A stretch of 12,761 bases of DNA from NCBI GenBank assembly GCA_030039825.1, contig JASHUV010000147.1:1-12761 (forward strand), given 5' to 3'. Each line of letters begins with the position of its first letter. Position 1 is the stretch's first letter. The notes under the pieces are model-generated. The model was given only the letters and a program-made list of their open reading frames with translations. It was not told where the DNA came from and ran no database searches. A program made the position numbers and the translations under genes. This DNA comes from Thermoplasmata archaeon. Its GTDB lineage: Archaea > Thermoplasmatota > Thermoplasmata > Lutacidiplasmatales > UBA184. Of the stretch, positions 931 through 12,696 are shown piece by piece.

Positions 931-1924
931 GGCGCTCTGGCGCAAGCTCGGTCGCGACCCGCTCGTCCCGGCCGCGATCTACGCGGCGGCCCGCCACCAC
1001 CTCGTGCGACCCACGCTCGACGCCCCGGCGACGGCGGAGGAGATCGCCGGGCGGTGCGAGGTGGATCCCGCGGTGACGCGGCGGCTCGTCGAGTTGCTGA
1101 CCGAGGAGGGCTTCCTCGAGCGGGAGGCGGGCCACCGGTACCGGGCCACGCCCCTGGGACGACGTCTCGAGGACCCCGCCGTCCGGACGGAGGTCTGCTT
1201 CTGGTTCGAGATCCACCTCCCCTACGTGCTCCGGCTCGATCACTCACTCCGCACCGGGGCCGCGTCGTACGACGCGGTCCACGGCGAGGCGTTCTATCGG
1301 CACCTCGACGCGCGGCCCGAGTACTCCGTCCACGTCCGCGGCGACCTCGCCCGGGGCGCGTCGGAGGCCGAACGGGTCCTCTCGGCTCACTGCGACCTCG
1401 GGGCGGTCCGGACCGTCGTCGATGTCGGGGGGAACACGGGCTCGCTCCTTGCGGCCCTGCTCCGCCGATGGCCTCGGCTGACGGGCGTCCTCGTCGATCG
1501 CCCGGAGGCGACGCGCGCGGGGACCTCCCTCCTCGAGGAAGCGGGGCTCTCCACCCGCGCGCGCGTCCTCCCCGGCGACATCCTCTCCGACCCTCTCCCG
1601 GCGGCCGACGCCTACCTCCTGTCCTGGGTGGCGTCGGAGTGGGCCGACGCGGCGCTCGTCGGTCTCCTTCGGAACTGCCGTCGGTCGATGGCGCCGGAGA
1701 GCCGTCTGTGGATCCTCGAGCCGGTGATCTGGGAGGAGCCGCCCTCGAAGCGCCGCCGGGACCTGGACCTCCTGATCCGGGCGACGGTGGGGGGACACCT
1801 CCGTTCCGAGCGCGACTTCGTCGAGCTCTTCGCCCAGGCGGGCCTCACGCTCCGCCGTGCGATCCGCACGGGCGAGTACGTCGACGTGGTCGAAGGCGGG
1901 CCGGACGCGGCCGGCCGGACCTAG
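878..1924 (+). CDS. O-methyltransferase homologue (caffeic-acid/acetylserotonin type), catalytic His missing
   Basis: 348 residues from GTG 878, close to the family's usual 330-350. Residues about 15-90 form the winged-helix dimerisation domain (L-x-A-A-R-H-H-L-V-R-P-T-L, E-I-A-G-R-C, L-V-E-L-L-T-E-E-G-F-L-E-R). The SAM-binding loop is V-V-D-V-G-G-N-T-G-S around residues 180-189, followed by V-L-V-D-R-P. The segment normally reading L-x-H-D-W-x-D is V-A-S-E-W-A-D, with Ser253 where the catalytic-base His should be. The C-terminal E-P-V-I-W, D-L-D-L-L and G-x-L-R-S-E-x-D-F-x-x-L-F-x-x-A-G-L elements are all present. The fold and SAM site look intact, but classic O-methylation chemistry is doubtful. 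The start overlaps the 5' end of the divergent ICMT-like gene. The stop shares CTAG with the convergent surface-protein gene. Confidence 0.85.
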   Translation: MARGDPGIGEEPAGIDDTALWRKLGRDPLVPAAIYAAARHHLVRPTLDAPATAEEIAGRCEVDPAVTRRLVELLTEEGFLEREAGHRYRATPLGRRLEDPAVRTEVCFWFEIHLPYVLRLDHSLRTGAASYDAVHGEAFYRHLDARPEYSVHVRGDLARGASEAERVLSAHCDLGAVRTVVDVGGNTGSLLAALLRRWPRLTGVLVDRPEATRAGTSLLEEAGLSTRARVLPGDILSDPLPAADAYLLSWVASEWADAALVGLLRNCRRSMAPESRLWILEPVIWEEPPSKRRRDLDLLIRATVGGHLRSERDFVELFAQAGLTLRRAIRTGEYVDVVEGGPDAAGRT

Positions 1925-4900
1925 GAGGACCCGGACGGCGGTGGCGCGTCGTCCGTTATCCGGCCGGGGAGCTTCTTCCGCACGTAGGTCCCGGTCGCTC
2001 CCTCCGAAGCGCCCGGGTCGGCTGCGGGCGCCTCGGCCGCACCGGGCATCTTCTTCCGCGTGTACTGGCCCACGCCCGCGATCTCCGAGGGCGCCTCCGG
2101 CGGGTCGGCCTCCGCGCTCGACATCCTCCCGGGCATCTTCTTCCGCGTGTACGTCCCGAGGGCCGTATCGGAGGGGCCCGACGGACCACCCCCGAGCATC
2201 GCCGCGCCGGCCGTCGCCGGGCCCGAACCCCCCTCGCCCGACGAAGGCGAGGCGACCGACCCCGACGTCATCCTCCCGGGGAGCTTCTTCCTCGAGTAGG
2301 TGCCCCGCGCCGGTTCCGGGGCCCCGGCCGATCCCCCGGCGAGCGCCGCGCTGAGCGGCGCCGGGGAGGTGGGAACCGCACCGGAAGCCCCCCCGTCCGG
2401 GTCGGCGATCGACCCGGCGGTCATCCTCCCGGGCATCTTCTTTCGCGTGTACGTCCCGAGCTCGGGGCCCGGGTCGGACCCACCGCCCCCCTCGGGGGGG
2501 GCGGCACCGGCGTTCGTCGGCGGCGGGACGTCCCTCATCCGACGGATGCCGGTCGCGCCGTCCCCTCCGGCCCCCGCGCGGAAATAGAGGATCGCGCCCG
2601 CGGCGGCGATGGTCGCGATGACAGCGACGATCGCGCCGAGCCCCAGGGGCTGCGTCCACCAGGGCCGGGACTCCGCGGGGCTCGGTGGCCCGCCCTGCGT
2701 GGAGACGAGGACGAGCGAGATCCCGGACGTCCCGACCGTCAGGTGGAGGGTCTCGACCTCACCCGCCGAGAGGCTTCCCGAATAGCTCGCGTTGAGCACG
2801 AGGGTCCCGTTCGAGGCGCGCAGCACGGCGTCGATCGTGAAACGGCCGCCGACCGGCGGGACGGAGGCGAGGCCGCTCACTTGGACGGTGTAGACGCCCG
2901 ACACCGGCCCTCCGACGGCGATGAGCTCGAACGGCGACGGGGGCCCGGCGAGCGTGGCGTTCGGGTACCCGTTCGGAGCTCCGCCCGCGTTGCCGAACCC
3001 CGCCGAGTGGCCGGACGGGTCGGTCTCGACGAAGTTCGCCGGCCCCGCGACCGCGGTGGTGAGCGTGTTCGTGGAGAGGGTCGGGGGCGGCCCGACGCGC
3101 GCGGGCGGGACGAGCGGCTCGCACGCGCTCGTCGCCGGCCCATCGTTCCCGTCCCCGCCGTAGGTCGCCTCGTAGCTCTCCGAATCCGTCGGGAACGTCA
3201 GCGCCGAGGATCCCGGAACGACGCCGTTCGTCACGGTGACCGTGCTGACCGTGGTTGGGGATCCGGCGCACGACGCCCCGGAATAGTACCGGTACGTCAC
3301 GCTCCCCCCGGCCCCGGGCGCGGTCCCCGAGAGCGTCGCCGCGTCAGTCACCGTGACGTTCGGGACGAGCGGCGCGAGGAACTGACCGGACTCGGACAGG
3401 CCGACGTAGAGGGCGTGGTTCGCCGCGTCGTAGGCGATCCCCTGCGCGGGGAAGGGAAGGTAGCCGGCGAGGGTCGTCCCCGACATCTCGACGAGATCGT
3501 ACGGCGAGAAGGCCGTCGTGGGATCCGTCGCGTAGACGATCCCGTTGAGCGCGTCGTAGGCGATCCCCCACCCGTCGCTCGCGAAGACGTAGATCTCGGC
3601 GAGGAGGGTGTTGGTTGACGGGGCCACGACCTCGAGGCCCCCGGACGGCCCCGAGGCCACGAAGTAGAGGTCGCCGTTCGCGGGGTCGTACACCGCACCG
3701 GAGGCGTCGCCGAACACACCGTTCGGGAAGGCGGCGGTGACGCTCGTTCCCGAGATGACCTCGGTGCAGACGCTGCTCCCGCATCCCGGGACGACGCCGA
3801 ACGGATCGTCGACCGGAACGTACACCTTCCCGTTCGCGGGATCGACGACGATCGCCCCCCAGTCGGGCTCCACGTTCGTACCCAGCGGGACGGTCCCGAC
3901 GACCTTGTCCGTCTGGGCGCTCCCCCCGCACGGGGTACCGCCGTCGCACACGACGGAAACGTAGTTCGACTGCTGGTTCGCCACGTAGATCTCGTCCGTC
4001 GTGGTGTCGACGGCGAGGCCGTACGGCCCGTTCCCGACCGGGACCGTCGCCGACACGCTCGTCCCGGTGATCACCGAGACGGTCCCGGGGTTACCGAAGT
4101 TGTAGTTCGCCACGAAGATCTGCTGCGTGTTCGCGTCGTACGCCACCGCGCACGGCTCGCTCCCGACCGCGACCGTGGTGACGGTCGTGTTCGTCGCGCC
4201 GTTCTCGACCTGGACGTCGTTCGCGCTCAGGAGGGCGGCGTAGAGGTCGCCGTCCGAGGGATCGTAGGCGATCCCGCAGGCCGCCGCCCCTCCCGTCGTG
4301 GGAAGCTTCGTCCCGAGGCTGGCGCCCGGCGTCGCCGCGAGCGACGTCGTCAGGGTGGGGGCGGTCCGGTTGACGGTGAGCGGTTCGCACGGGCTCGTCG
4401 CGGGCGCGTTCGAGCCGTCGCCCGAGTACGTCGCGTTCCAGCTGTACAGGCCGGCGCTGAGGAAGCTGTGGGAGGAGGAGACGTAGCTGCCCGGTCCGTG
4501 GACGCTCGACGTGCTGATGGGATTCGCGGGGCCGGTGCACCCGGCCGTCGAGAAGAGGTAGAAGTCGATGCTGCCTCCCGCGCTCGCCGTGGCCCCCGTC
4601 AGGGTCGCGGTGTCGGTATCCGGCTGGCCGACCGGGAGAGGATCGGTCCGGAGGAGGGTGGTGAGGTTCGTGGCCGCGGGAGGAACGACGCTCATCGGCT
4701 CGCACGCGCTCGTCGCGGCGCTGTTGTTGGCATCGCCGCCATACCCCGCCGTCCAGCTGTACGCGCCCGGGGACGGGAACACGTGGGCCGAGCTGTTGGG
4801 CACGACGCCGGCCAGGACCGTCTCGACCGAGACGATGCCGGGCGTCCCCGAACAGAGGGAGCCCGTGAAGAGCTCGTAGGTGACCGTCCCCGACGCCGAC

Positions 4901-5427
4901 GGGGTCGCGCCGGAGAGCGTCGCGGAGTCGTGGACGGACCCTCCGGTCGGGATGGTCGTCGCCGAGAGGTTCGTCGCGACGGTCGGGGTCGACGCGTTGA
5001 CCGTCATCGGCTCGCAGGCGCTCTGGGTCGCGTTGTTGGCCGAGTTCCCGCTGTAGTCGGCTCTCCAGCTGTCCGAACCCGCCGCCGGGAAGGCGTGGGT
5101 GGGGGAGTCCGGGACCGTCCCGCCGCTCGCCACCGACACCGTCCCGATGAGCGTGGGCGCGGTGCTCGCGCAGGTGAGGCTGCCGGGATAGAGGAAGTAG
5201 GAGACGGTCCCGGCCGTCACGCCGGTGCCGTTGACGTACCCGGAGAGGTTCGCCGTGTCGTAGACCGACCCCCCCGCCGGGATCGATGTCGCCGAGAGGG
5301 CGGTGCTGATCGTCGCGGTCGCCGGGATCGGCCGCGCCACCCCCGCTCCGGAGGCGAAGGTGAGCAGCAGGGAGGCTCCCAGGAGCAGGAGCGCGATCCC
5401 CACCGCCGTGCGTCCCACCGTGCTCAC
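1921..5427 (-). CDS. Large surface protein: Ig-like repeats with inserted beta-propeller, one TM helix, cytoplasmic RKK(M/L)PG repeat tail
   Basis: 1168 residues. A signal peptide is clear at about 1-31 (hydrophobic core G-I-A-L-L-L-L-G-A-S-L-L-L). Three Ig-like repeats follow (about 37-143, 147-247, 252-352), each ending in A/P-C-E-P-M/L with an upstream partner Cys, so a disulfide per domain is likely. A fourth repeat begins at about 357, is interrupted by a YVTN/NHL-type beta-propeller (about 380-689), and resumes at about 690-772. A further beta-rich domain covers about 780-910. One TM helix spans about 928-949, then comes a 219-residue Gly/Pro/Ala/Ser-rich tail with five G-T-Y-x-R-K-K-(M/L)-P-G motifs. 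Many N-x-S/T sequons suit archaeal N-glycosylation. Predicted topology: outside to inside, with the tail in the cytoplasm. No enzymatic motif was seen. It could be an adhesin, sensor or scaffold; function unknown. Confidence 0.9.
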   Translation of the reverse strand: MSTVGRTAVGIALLLLGASLLLTFASGAGVARPIPATATISTALSATSIPAGGSVYDTANLSGYVNGTGVTAGTVSYFLYPGSLTCASTAPTLIGTVSVASGGTVPDSPTHAFPAAGSDSWRADYSGNSANNATQSACEPMTVNASTPTVATNLSATTIPTGGSVHDSATLSGATPSASGTVTYELFTGSLCSGTPGIVSVETVLAGVVPNSSAHVFPSPGAYSWTAGYGGDANNSAATSACEPMSVVPPAATNLTTLLRTDPLPVGQPDTDTATLTGATASAGGSIDFYLFSTAGCTGPANPISTSSVHGPGSYVSSSHSFLSAGLYSWNATYSGDGSNAPATSPCEPLTVNRTAPTLTTSLAATPGASLGTKLPTTGGAAACGIAYDPSDGDLYAALLSANDVQVENGATNTTVTTVAVGSEPCAVAYDANTQQIFVANYNFGNPGTVSVITGTSVSATVPVGNGPYGLAVDTTTDEIYVANQQSNYVSVVCDGGTPCGGSAQTDKVVGTVPLGTNVEPDWGAIVVDPANGKVYVPVDDPFGVVPGCGSSVCTEVISGTSVTAAFPNGVFGDASGAVYDPANGDLYFVASGPSGGLEVVAPSTNTLLAEIYVFASDGWGIAYDALNGIVYATDPTTAFSPYDLVEMSGTTLAGYLPFPAQGIAYDAANHALYVGLSESGQFLAPLVPNVTVTDAATLSGTAPGAGGSVTYRYYSGASCAGSPTTVSTVTVTNGVVPGSSALTFPTDSESYEATYGGDGNDGPATSACEPLVPPARVGPPPTLSTNTLTTAVAGPANFVETDPSGHSAGFGNAGGAPNGYPNATLAGPPSPFELIAVGGPVSGVYTVQVSGLASVPPVGGRFTIDAVLRASNGTLVLNASYSGSLSAGEVETLHLTVGTSGISLVLVSTQGGPPSPAESRPWWTQPLGLGAIVAVIATIAAAGAILYFRAGAGGDGATGIRRMRDVPPPTNAGAAPPEGGGGSDPGPELGTYTRKKMPGRMTAGSIADPDGGASGAVPTSPAPLSAALAGGSAGAPEPARGTYSRKKLPGRMTSGSVASPSSGEGGSGPATAGAAMLGGGPSGPSDTALGTYTRKKMPGRMSSAEADPPEAPSEIAGVGQYTRKKMPGAAEAPAADPGASEGATGTYVRKKLPGRITDDAPPPSGSS
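1957..2457 (-). repeat. Five-copy G-T-Y-x-R-K-K-(M/L)-P-G motif array in the surface protein tail
   Basis: Copies start at residues 991, 1042, 1091, 1120 and 1146. They read GTYTRKKMPGRM, GTYSRKKLPGRM, GTYTRKKMPGRM, GQYTRKKMPGAA and GTYVRKKLPGRI. Spacings are 51, 49, 29 and 26 residues, with low-complexity G/P/A/S linkers. The motifs sit after the membrane helix, so they should be cytoplasmic. Linkers diverge freely while R-K-K and P-G do not change, which implies selection on the motif. I recognise no named family for it. Confidence 0.9.
3112..5319 (-). repeat. Ig-like repeat region with a propeller nested in repeat 4
   Basis: Four copies of a roughly 100-residue Ig-like unit are seen. Shared features are an A-T-L-S-G/N-L-S-G strand, a T-V-T-Y/S-V-S-Y strand, a C-x-G-x-P turn, a V-V-P-x-S-x-x-x-F-P segment, Y-S-W-x-A-x-Y-x-G-D, and the closing S-A-C-E-P. 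The first strand of unit 4 lies at about residues 357-372 and its remainder at 690-772, on either side of the propeller. Similar units are common in archaeal and bacterial adhesin-like surface proteins. Confidence 0.8.
3361..4290 (-). other. Seven-repeat beta-propeller domain (YVTN/NHL-like) within the surface protein
   Basis: Seven G-(I/L)-A-Y-D-x-x-x-x-x-(L/I/V)-Y-V-type signatures occur: GIAYDPSDGDLY, AVAYDANTQQIF, GLAVDTTTDEIY, AIVVDPANGKVY, GAVYDPANGDLY, GIAYDALNGIVY and GIAYDAANHALY. Each is followed by a V-x-V-I-x-G-T-type strand. Seven repeats suggest a seven-bladed propeller. Cys pairs (V-C-D-G-G-T-P-C and G-C-G-S-S-V-C) suggest local disulfides, consistent with an extracellular location. 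Confidence 0.8.
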
Positions 5428-5556: not shown

Positions 5557-5751
5557 CTACTTCTTCCGAGAACGGCGGGCCGGTTCCTTCTTGGCGGCCC
5601 GCGGCTCCGCGTCGTCGCGCGAGGCGTCGGGTTCGTACGACGCTTCACTGGCACGCTTGAGGGTCGCCCCGTCCCGGTCGCAGACCGGATGGGCCGGTGC
5701 CGGGTCGATGACGTAGCCGCCCCCGCAGACAGGACACTCGAAGTATGGCAT
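5557..5751 (-). CDS. Small zinc-ribbon protein with basic C-terminal tail
   Basis: 64 residues. Residues 5-25 contain E-C-P-V-C and H-P-V-C (Cys6, Cys9, His21, Cys24), a likely single zinc-ribbon site. After R-D-G-A-T-L comes a charged, probably disordered tail rich in Asp/Glu, ending in A-A-K-K-E-P-A-R-R-S-R-K-K. The pattern resembles small archaeal zinc-ribbon proteins that bind nucleic acid or partner proteins, but no specific family is recognised. ATG 5751 has a TATA-like CTCATAAGG about 30 bases upstream, which fits a leaderless transcript. The gene lies upstream of the surface protein on the same strand with a 129-base gap, so co-regulation is possible but not shown. Confidence 0.75.
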   Translation of the reverse strand: MPYFECPVCGGGYVIDPAPAHPVCDRDGATLKRASEASYEPDASRDDAEPRAAKKEPARRSRKK

Positions 5752-5787: not shown

Positions 5788-5884
5788 CCGCTCGGTCCGG
5801 CCCGCCTCCCCCCTTCGAGCCCCCGAGATCCGTCCGGACGGACCGGGCACGATCGGAGCGCGCCGGTCGGGGTGAGCGACGTCG

Positions 5885-6311
5885 ATGAGCGAACATCCGG
5901 GGATGTCGACGTCGGTCCCGGTCGTCGATGGACACGAGCCCGTCTCGGTCCCCCTCCGGGCATCGCGCGGACCCGGGAGTTCTACTCCACCGCCCGGGGA
6001 CTCACGGAGGCGAGCTTCGTACCGGCCGCCTCCCGCGCCGCGTTCGAGATCCCCGACACGAGCGCGTTCTTGATGAGGCACGTCATGGGGCCGGGCGAGA
6101 ACGATCGGGAGCGGGGGATGGTCTGCGGCATCGTGTTCACCCGCCGCGATCCCGAGCCGGCCCTCGAGGAGGACCACCGGCGGGGGGAGCCACGATCGGG
6201 GACGAACCGATCGCCTTGACGAACCGCCCCGGGCGCGTCACGCTCGGCGTGTTCGCGGACCCGGATGGCGATCAGATCGTGGTGCGGAGGATCAAGCGGC
6301 TCCCGCGGTGA
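5885..6311 (+). pseudogene. VOC/glyoxalase-fold protein, apparently frameshifted twice
   Basis: Three reading frames together give one VOC-fold protein of about 142 residues. ATG 5885 (or ATG 5903) starts frame A, giving G-H-E-P-V-S-V-P-L-R. Near 5955-5962 the homology moves to a second frame reading G-I-A-R-T-R-E-F-Y-S-T-A-R-G-L through M-R-H-V-M-G-P and I-V-F-T-R-R-D-P-E-P-A-L-E-E. Near the G6 run at 6182-6187 it moves again to G-A-T-I-G-D-E-P then V-T-L-G-V-F-A-D-P-D-G-D-Q-I-V-V, the classic VOC ending. One extra G at each point (GGG 5958-5960; G6 6182-6187) would restore a single frame. It is either a decayed gene or a consensus sequence error. VOC proteins include lyases, dioxygenases and resistance proteins; the substrate cannot be told. 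Confidence 0.65.
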
Positions 6312-12387: not shown

Positions 12388-12696
12388 TCATCTGCGCCCG
12401 CGGCCTCGGATTCGATCGAGCCTCCGGTAAAATCCCGGTCGAACACCGACCCCAAAGAGGACGATGGTCTCGCCTTCCACCACATACAGGAGGCGGTATT
12501 CGTCATCCGAGAAGTGAGCGCTCCAGGCTTCGGTCGGTGCGGCTCGGCGAAGTCGTTCCAGCCGAAAGCCGGCTCCCGGCGAGAACGGGCGACGCCGAAT
12601 CGACGCAATGACACGCCAACATTCGTCGCGAACCTCGTTGGGCGGCGCGAGGAATTCGTCGTCGAATCGCGGGTCCCGGAGGACCTTTCGGGTCAT
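12388..12696 (-). CDS. RelE/ParE superfamily toxin of a type II toxin-antitoxin module
   Basis: 102 residues. An N-terminal helical part (D-P-R-F-D-D-E-F-L-A-P-P-N-E-V-R-D-E-C-W-R-V-I) is followed by the RelE/ParE core: R-L-E-R-L-R-R-A, W-S-A-H-F-S-D-D-E-Y-R-L-L-Y-V-V-E-G-E-T-I-V-L-F-G-V-G. The D-x-Y-R-(L/V)-L-Y strand and following V-x-x-x-x-I-V-L-x-G-V-G are standard for the fold. Members are mRNA interferases or gyrase poisons; which one cannot be told here. ATG 12696 overlaps the stop of an upstream frame as ATGA, the usual antitoxin-toxin coupling. Base composition looks less GC-biased than the rest of the window, a hint of recent acquisition. Confidence 0.68.
   Translation of the reverse strand: MTRKVLRDPRFDDEFLAPPNEVRDECWRVIASIRRRPFSPGAGFRLERLRRAAPTEAWSAHFSDDEYRLLYVVEGETIVLFGVGVRPGFYRRLDRIRGRGRR

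Follow-up and report, generated by a model that had tools for sequence, protein, structure and literature searches.

The surface protein gene and its neighborhood

The window, by which we mean the whole 12,761-nucleotide stretch of Thermoplasmata DNA that was analyzed, carries a surface protein gene on its minus strand. In the 1168-aa product a signal peptide, Ig-like domains, a YVTN-type propeller, further beta domains, a transmembrane (TM) helix and a tail follow each other in this order, the signal peptide and the further beta domains having been assigned by eye. The features are:

1921..5427, minus strand: surface protein gene, 1168 aa, GTG start, with TIGR02276 and Big_3_5 above cut-offs
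5347..5427, minus strand: signal peptide at the N-terminus, residues 1-27 (assigned by eye; a low-confidence model has a helix at 4-26)
4369..4641, minus strand: best Big_3_5 Ig-like stretch, residues 263-353 (Pfam search)
3358..4314, minus strand: YVTN/YncE-like propeller, about residues 372-690 (limits by eye)
2581..2643, minus strand: single C-terminal TM helix, about residues 929-949 (sequence and hydropathy; helix 930-942 in a low-confidence model)
1924..2577, minus strand: G/A/P/S-rich tail of 218 aa, predicted cytoplasmic (sequence)

The protein belongs to a known kind, the YVTN-type propeller/Ig-like surface proteins, of which its tail represents a new variant. PF16640 matched the Ig-like domains with 43.4 bits (curated cut-off 35.5), two stretches of the protein passed E 0.1 for Big_3_5, and TIGR02276 matched the propeller repeats with 31.6 bits (curated cut-off 27.85), its best stretch being residues 390-431. 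By eye and hydropathy, the signal peptide is accompanied by a C-terminal TM helix with a positive-inside flank. These Pfam/NCBIfam matches and the hydropathy bear out the initial annotation, which had placed a single TM helix after an Ig/propeller ectodomain and ahead of a motif array. A structure prediction of the whole protein without alignment was useless (mean pLDDT 32.7). The GC content of the tail amounts to 0.904 at the third, 0.674 at the first and 0.725 at the second codon position, a pattern expected of coding sequence here.

The stop codons of the surface protein gene and a convergent methyltransferase gene overlap in a CTAG at 1921-1924. Directly upstream of the surface gene and on the same strand, a 64-aa ORF (5557-5751, minus strand) with a Cys-containing knuckle, a basic end and a weak ADK_lid match below cut-off is a possible operon partner. 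Two overlapping frames at 5884-6311 on the plus strand, both without a Pfam match at E 0.05, look by eye like one glyoxalase-like gene with a frameshift. A YoeB-like toxin at 12388-12696 (minus strand) was indicated by a weak Pfam match below cut-off (E 0.0037). The Pfam search also gave a DUF973 match in the window; this family is spread among archaea and, together with the surface-protein family, makes an archaeal source likely. Rfam at gathering threshold gave no match.

Copies, codons and lysines of the motif

The tail carries five in-frame copies of G-[TQ]-Y-x-R-K-K-[ML]-P-G on the minus strand, as read from the tail sequence:

2422..2457, minus strand: motif copy 1, GTYTRKKMPGRM
2269..2304, minus strand: motif copy 2, GTYSRKKLPGRM
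2122..2157, minus strand: motif copy 3, GTYTRKKMPGRM
2041..2070, minus strand: motif copy 4, GQYTRKKMPG, without the R-M extension
1957..1992, minus strand: motif copy 5, GTYVRKKLPGRI

In ORF 5427..1921, Y.RKK[ML]PG is located at residues 993, 1044, 1093, 1122 and 1148, which yields the spacings of 51, 49, 29 and 26 already reported in the initial annotation. Its description of a five-copy array with invariant R-K-K and P-G likewise stands, as seven columns (G, Y, R, K, K, P and G) are fixed in 5 out of 5 copies. The motif is longer than was given there, with R-[MI]-[TS] directly following the core in 4 out of 5 copies. Since the residue after the motif tyrosine varies between T, S and V, the tyrosine is the sole invariant hydroxyl residue of the core. 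Each of the four linkers between the copies contains 2-4 D/E and 0-1 K/R. A five-copy array by chance is excluded: 200 shufflings of the tail residues gave at most 2 similar 10-mers versus the 5 observed.

A 70-nt repeat composed of motif and flank is present in 4 places, three of them with 61-76% identity to the reference copy. Thus, duplication contributed at least in part to the growth of the array. At score 30 it is not listed by Tandem Repeats Finder, the copies being diverged and unevenly spaced. The earlier description of the linkers as unconserved fits the wide divergence of the flanks and fails in part where the 70-nt repeat extends into them. Furthermore, copies 1 and 3 differ at only 1 out of 7 synonymous places, and the motif proline is encoded by CCC in 5 out of 5 copies, although CCG is commoner in the gene. 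Hence, the copies are not fully independent.

Duplication is also what a passive, lineage-specific G/A/P/S-rich tail would display, grown without a partner and retaining the motif as a leftover of the duplicated unit. The 70-nt repeat, an array seen in one protein of one genome, and family tails that vary freely in length and sequence are in line with such an origin. We nevertheless regard it as rather improbable, since replacements are rife in the flanks yet spare the core, whose synonymous sites have moved. In 100 pairwise comparisons of the ten core codons, 59 were identical, 24 synonymous and 17 replacement, while replacements accounted for 101 out of 120 comparisons in the 12 codons left of the core and for 94 out of 112 in the 12 codons to its right. 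Same-residue codons over 12 positions differed in 27 out of 56 pairs (0.48) in a synonymous comparison that leaves out K, M, Y and W. Random draws following the codon usage of the gene averaged 0.62, with 5.8% of the 5000 draws being as low as 0.48. The silent sites of the core are moderately diverged, somewhat below random, while the core residues stay fixed. Together with the diverged flanks this argues for residues held by selection. Protein-level purifying selection on the motif core appears well supported by these codon comparisons, selection being judged from copies within one gene because no orthologues were found. Repeated sites under purifying selection, as looked for in a docking tail built of short linear motifs, are present when judged within this one gene.

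The motif is built with lysine in a family of tails dominated by arginine. In 87 other family tails, a count that leaves out the window and three doubtful long tails, R:K was 424:65 and KK occurred in 3; in 18 family tails of the own genome R:K was 112:11. The surface protein has 13 lysines in all, 10 of which are the KK pairs of the five copies. K was found at 10 out of 10 of these positions, without any exchange of R and K among the copies. Charge alone would let R replace K in some copies, which suggests either a partner that reads lysine or a modification of the lysines. Judged from copies that are not fully independent, the motif looks specific for lysine.

Modification may turn the tail into a signal platform, for instance through methylation, acetylation or conjugation of the paired lysines or of the T/S that follows R-[MI]. 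The lysine pairs kept in 5 out of 5 copies of a K-poor protein and the T or S after R-[MI] in 4 out of 5 copies would suit this explanation, which we consider highly improbable all the same. Another explanation is a clamp at the membrane interface, in which aromatic and basic copies lie on acidic lipid of the inner face, fold the tail back and hold or space the protein. The tyrosine followed by RKK and the P-G break is reminiscent of the inner edge in single-pass proteins, and the basic copies alternate with mildly acidic linkers. Pure charge, however, would allow the arginine prevalent in the family in place of the consistently kept lysine, and we consider the clamp unlikely.

Related surface proteins and searches for further arrays

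Propeller/Ig surface proteins have undergone a very large, genus-wide expansion. The propeller region matched in 76 out of 78 genus genomes at E 1e-8 and had 65 matches in its own genome at E 1e-4, its own gene included. C-termini were surveyed at 119 loci plus the window, taken from the matches listed as best matches and not as a random draw. Ectodomain matches were found in 132 ORFs, of which 115 were closed at the 3'-end; 1 was without a TM helix, and 23 were dropped since over 300 aa separate their last hydrophobic stretch from the end, which resulted in 91 C-termini. Among these matches listed, the median tail length is 27 aa versus 218 aa (221 as cut in the survey) for the window tail. 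The other three tails above 150 aa (282, 271 and 185 aa) seem, on inspection by eye, to be ectodomain that follows a hydrophobic stretch; thus, of the true tails seen, that of the window is the longest. In 88 out of the 91 C-termini, window included, the 15 residues that follow the helix contain more R/K than the 15 that precede it. This positive-inside pattern and the signal peptide agree with the cytoplasmic side named in the initial annotation, and the window tail is predicted to lie on that side.

The other 90 family C-termini among the matches listed are free of repeats of three or more. Three other family tails reached a repeat score of two (L129, L146 and L188); L146 (G222:C79) is a 43-aa tail containing the small near-repeat GSKGPEEPPRS twice. 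A wider look at these loci covered 441 likely coding ORFs; in 31 the last TM helix is located 60-400 aa from the end, and the sole other repeat of three or more in this group was a run of propeller blades. Absence of the motif from homologues, which the initial annotation had regarded as counter-evidence, was observed in the propeller family for the 90 other C-termini surveyed, which lack the array but are relatives by domain only.

A zinc-ribbon-like pattern terminates two family tails (L110, G027:C93; L134, G000:C63) and, also after a TM helix, a kumamolisin-like protease of the own genome (L225, G000:C13). These ends read C..C...C..C and gave weak Pfam matches below cut-off (DUF7577, DZR, Zn_Ribbon_1). 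Possibly, they constitute a recurrent cytoplasmic module on surface proteins. The surveyed C-termini are mostly short arginine-rich stop-transfer ends, and a few have extra parts like the zinc-ribbon-like ends or the five-fold lysine motif.

No second array was found among 300 class, 103 family and 78 genus genomes, and a general docking system is not supported so far, the array having been seen in one protein only. The strict DNA pattern matched in 7 out of 300 class genomes, with more than one match only in the own genome and one match in each of the other six; its reversed control matched in 5 out of 300. One of these six matches, L009, is situated in a 183-aa open frame of another genome, in which a TM helix is followed by YYRKKIPG. 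The five remaining ones fall into frames measuring 9-43 aa from stop to stop, one of them not reading R-K-K. As the only long-frame case of the six, L009 is a point in favor of the membrane clamp, although this coding look-alike is a single case. The looser DNA pattern matched in 3 out of 78 genus genomes (control 4 out of 78), again more than once only in the own genome; the two other matches, L026 and L027, are situated in frames of 68 and 39 aa. Single pattern matches in other genomes of the genus and class are at control level. In the own genome, 64.4% complete, R-K-K-hydrophobic-P-G occurs nowhere besides the five copies, so that no co-occurring partner can be inferred.

As a protein query, the tail matched 1 out of 61 relatives, namely itself; within the family, 3 out of 103 genomes had matches at E 0.01, one of these genomes being the own. 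The match in G024 (E 8e-5) is a frame with an internal stop, antisense to another membrane protein, that in G010 (E 0.0095) is a frame whose base composition is not coding-like, and a further match in the own genome (E 0.003) falls into the middle of a protease; an array tail is present at none of these places. With the C-terminal domain and the TM helix as query, 4 out of 61 genus genomes matched at E 0.01; besides the own genome these are three with weak matches (E 0.002-0.009), all without the motif. The searches for relatives in genus and family genomes brought up no orthologue of C-terminal domain and tail together. For whole-protein relatives in named genomes, 26 stretches matched the peptide pattern, 4 were confirmed, and 0 out of 4 loci had the motif. 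The adjoining methyltransferase as synteny anchor matched in 9 out of 78 genomes at E 1e-20, own included; the best other one shares just 38% identity, and hence there is no orthologous locus for comparison. In viral contigs the two-copy DNA pattern had 0 matches. Sites conserved between species, a further mark of docking tails, were not seen, as no relative with the array was found in these searches.

A candidate docking tail and its relation to known systems

The reading we favor, while putting it at slightly less than an even chance, is that the tail is flexible and multivalent and docks a partner that reads lysine. It would extend into the cytoplasm as a tether of an adhesin or receptor that spans the membrane once, and each Y-x-R-K-K-[ML]-P-G-(R-M) copy would be one binding site. 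Jointly, the five sites would sum weak single contacts to a tight or clustering attachment of a cytoplasmic partner. For this tail, which follows the TM helix in a member of a surface-protein family and has five selected copies with lysine kept as lysine, we infer a cytoplasmic side, disorder and multivalent binding. A partner reading the lysine, the tyrosine and the P-G turn, be it a protein or an RNA surface, fits better than a pure attraction of charge to acidic lipid, given that no copy has R exchanged for K or the reverse. Conservation between species, the usual proof of a docking motif, was not found, the array having been seen in one protein only. If the tail binds a partner, it would provide a route for an archaeal adhesin or receptor to act on the cell interior. 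To our knowledge, the cytoplasmic ends of archaeal surface proteins have received little attention so far.

The five-copy profile searched against 177635 distinct PDB sequences yielded one match at E up to 10, the KKMPGRM of mitochondrial uL3 (6ywe_C, E 1.4). A uL3 loop fragment as query retrieved 55 distinct sequences at E 0.01, all named uL3/L3 proteins, and two bacterial L3 alignments among the matches listed read FKGKKMAGQMG. The uL3 loop contacts 23S rRNA. The bacterial/organellar loop and the motif share the local likeness F/Y-x-x-K-K-M-(A/P)-G-(Q/R)-M, but the loop occurs as one copy in a ribosomal protein and the motif in five copies. Homology beyond the heptamer was not found, with E 1.4 for the profile and no match for the tail as one query; at the level of sequence the resemblance is a likeness, not homology, and serves as a lead only. 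The copies might accordingly be peptides that bind RNA and hold it, ribosomes or DNA at the membrane. That the sole PDB match is a uL3 peptide and that FKGKKMAGQMG lines up with YTRKKMPGRM, aromatic included, would favor such a contact. Yet for homology an E of 1.4 is at the level of chance, a PDB search with the whole tail as one query gave 0 matches at E 10, and we know of no nucleic-acid link of a surface protein, so that this contact has a rather small probability. Because of the likeness to uL3, RNA or ribosomes also come into question for a wider reading, a previously undescribed lysine-specific five-site docking tail that would tether a cytoplasmic machine to the envelope. This proposal has a slim chance of being correct; if true, it would add an archaeon to the examples of multivalent signalling or clustering through receptor tails.

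We know of no named system with this motif. In agreement with the same statement in the initial annotation, RKKMPG, RKKLPG and KKMPGRM were not found in the open-licence PMC literature. Among the matches listed for archaeal multivalent tails and Thermoplasmata tails, nothing was pertinent except for one paper, which reports beta-propeller surface proteins in Thermoplasmatales, citing Jing et al. 2002, and contains nothing on cytoplasmic tails in the text concerned (PMC10354927).

AT-hook proteins share with the tail a short basic P/G motif repeated in flexible linkers, but the R-G-R-P core is absent, R-K-K-[ML]-P-G taking its place, and the tail has no Pfam match at E 0.1. Archaeosortase substrates of the PGF-CTERM type have a TM helix and then a very short basic end, whereas the tail comprises 218 aa and has no NCBIfam match there at E 0.01. 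Multivalent short-linear-motif tails consist, like the window tail, of repeated short conserved sites in flexible linkers; in contrast to them, no conservation between species was seen for the window tail. YVTN/YncE-type propeller surface proteins share the Ig-like and propeller ectodomain, the signal peptide and the C-terminal TM helix. Their tails, as far as surveyed, are mostly short and rich in arginine and proline, whereas the window tail is long and carries a five-fold lysine motif.
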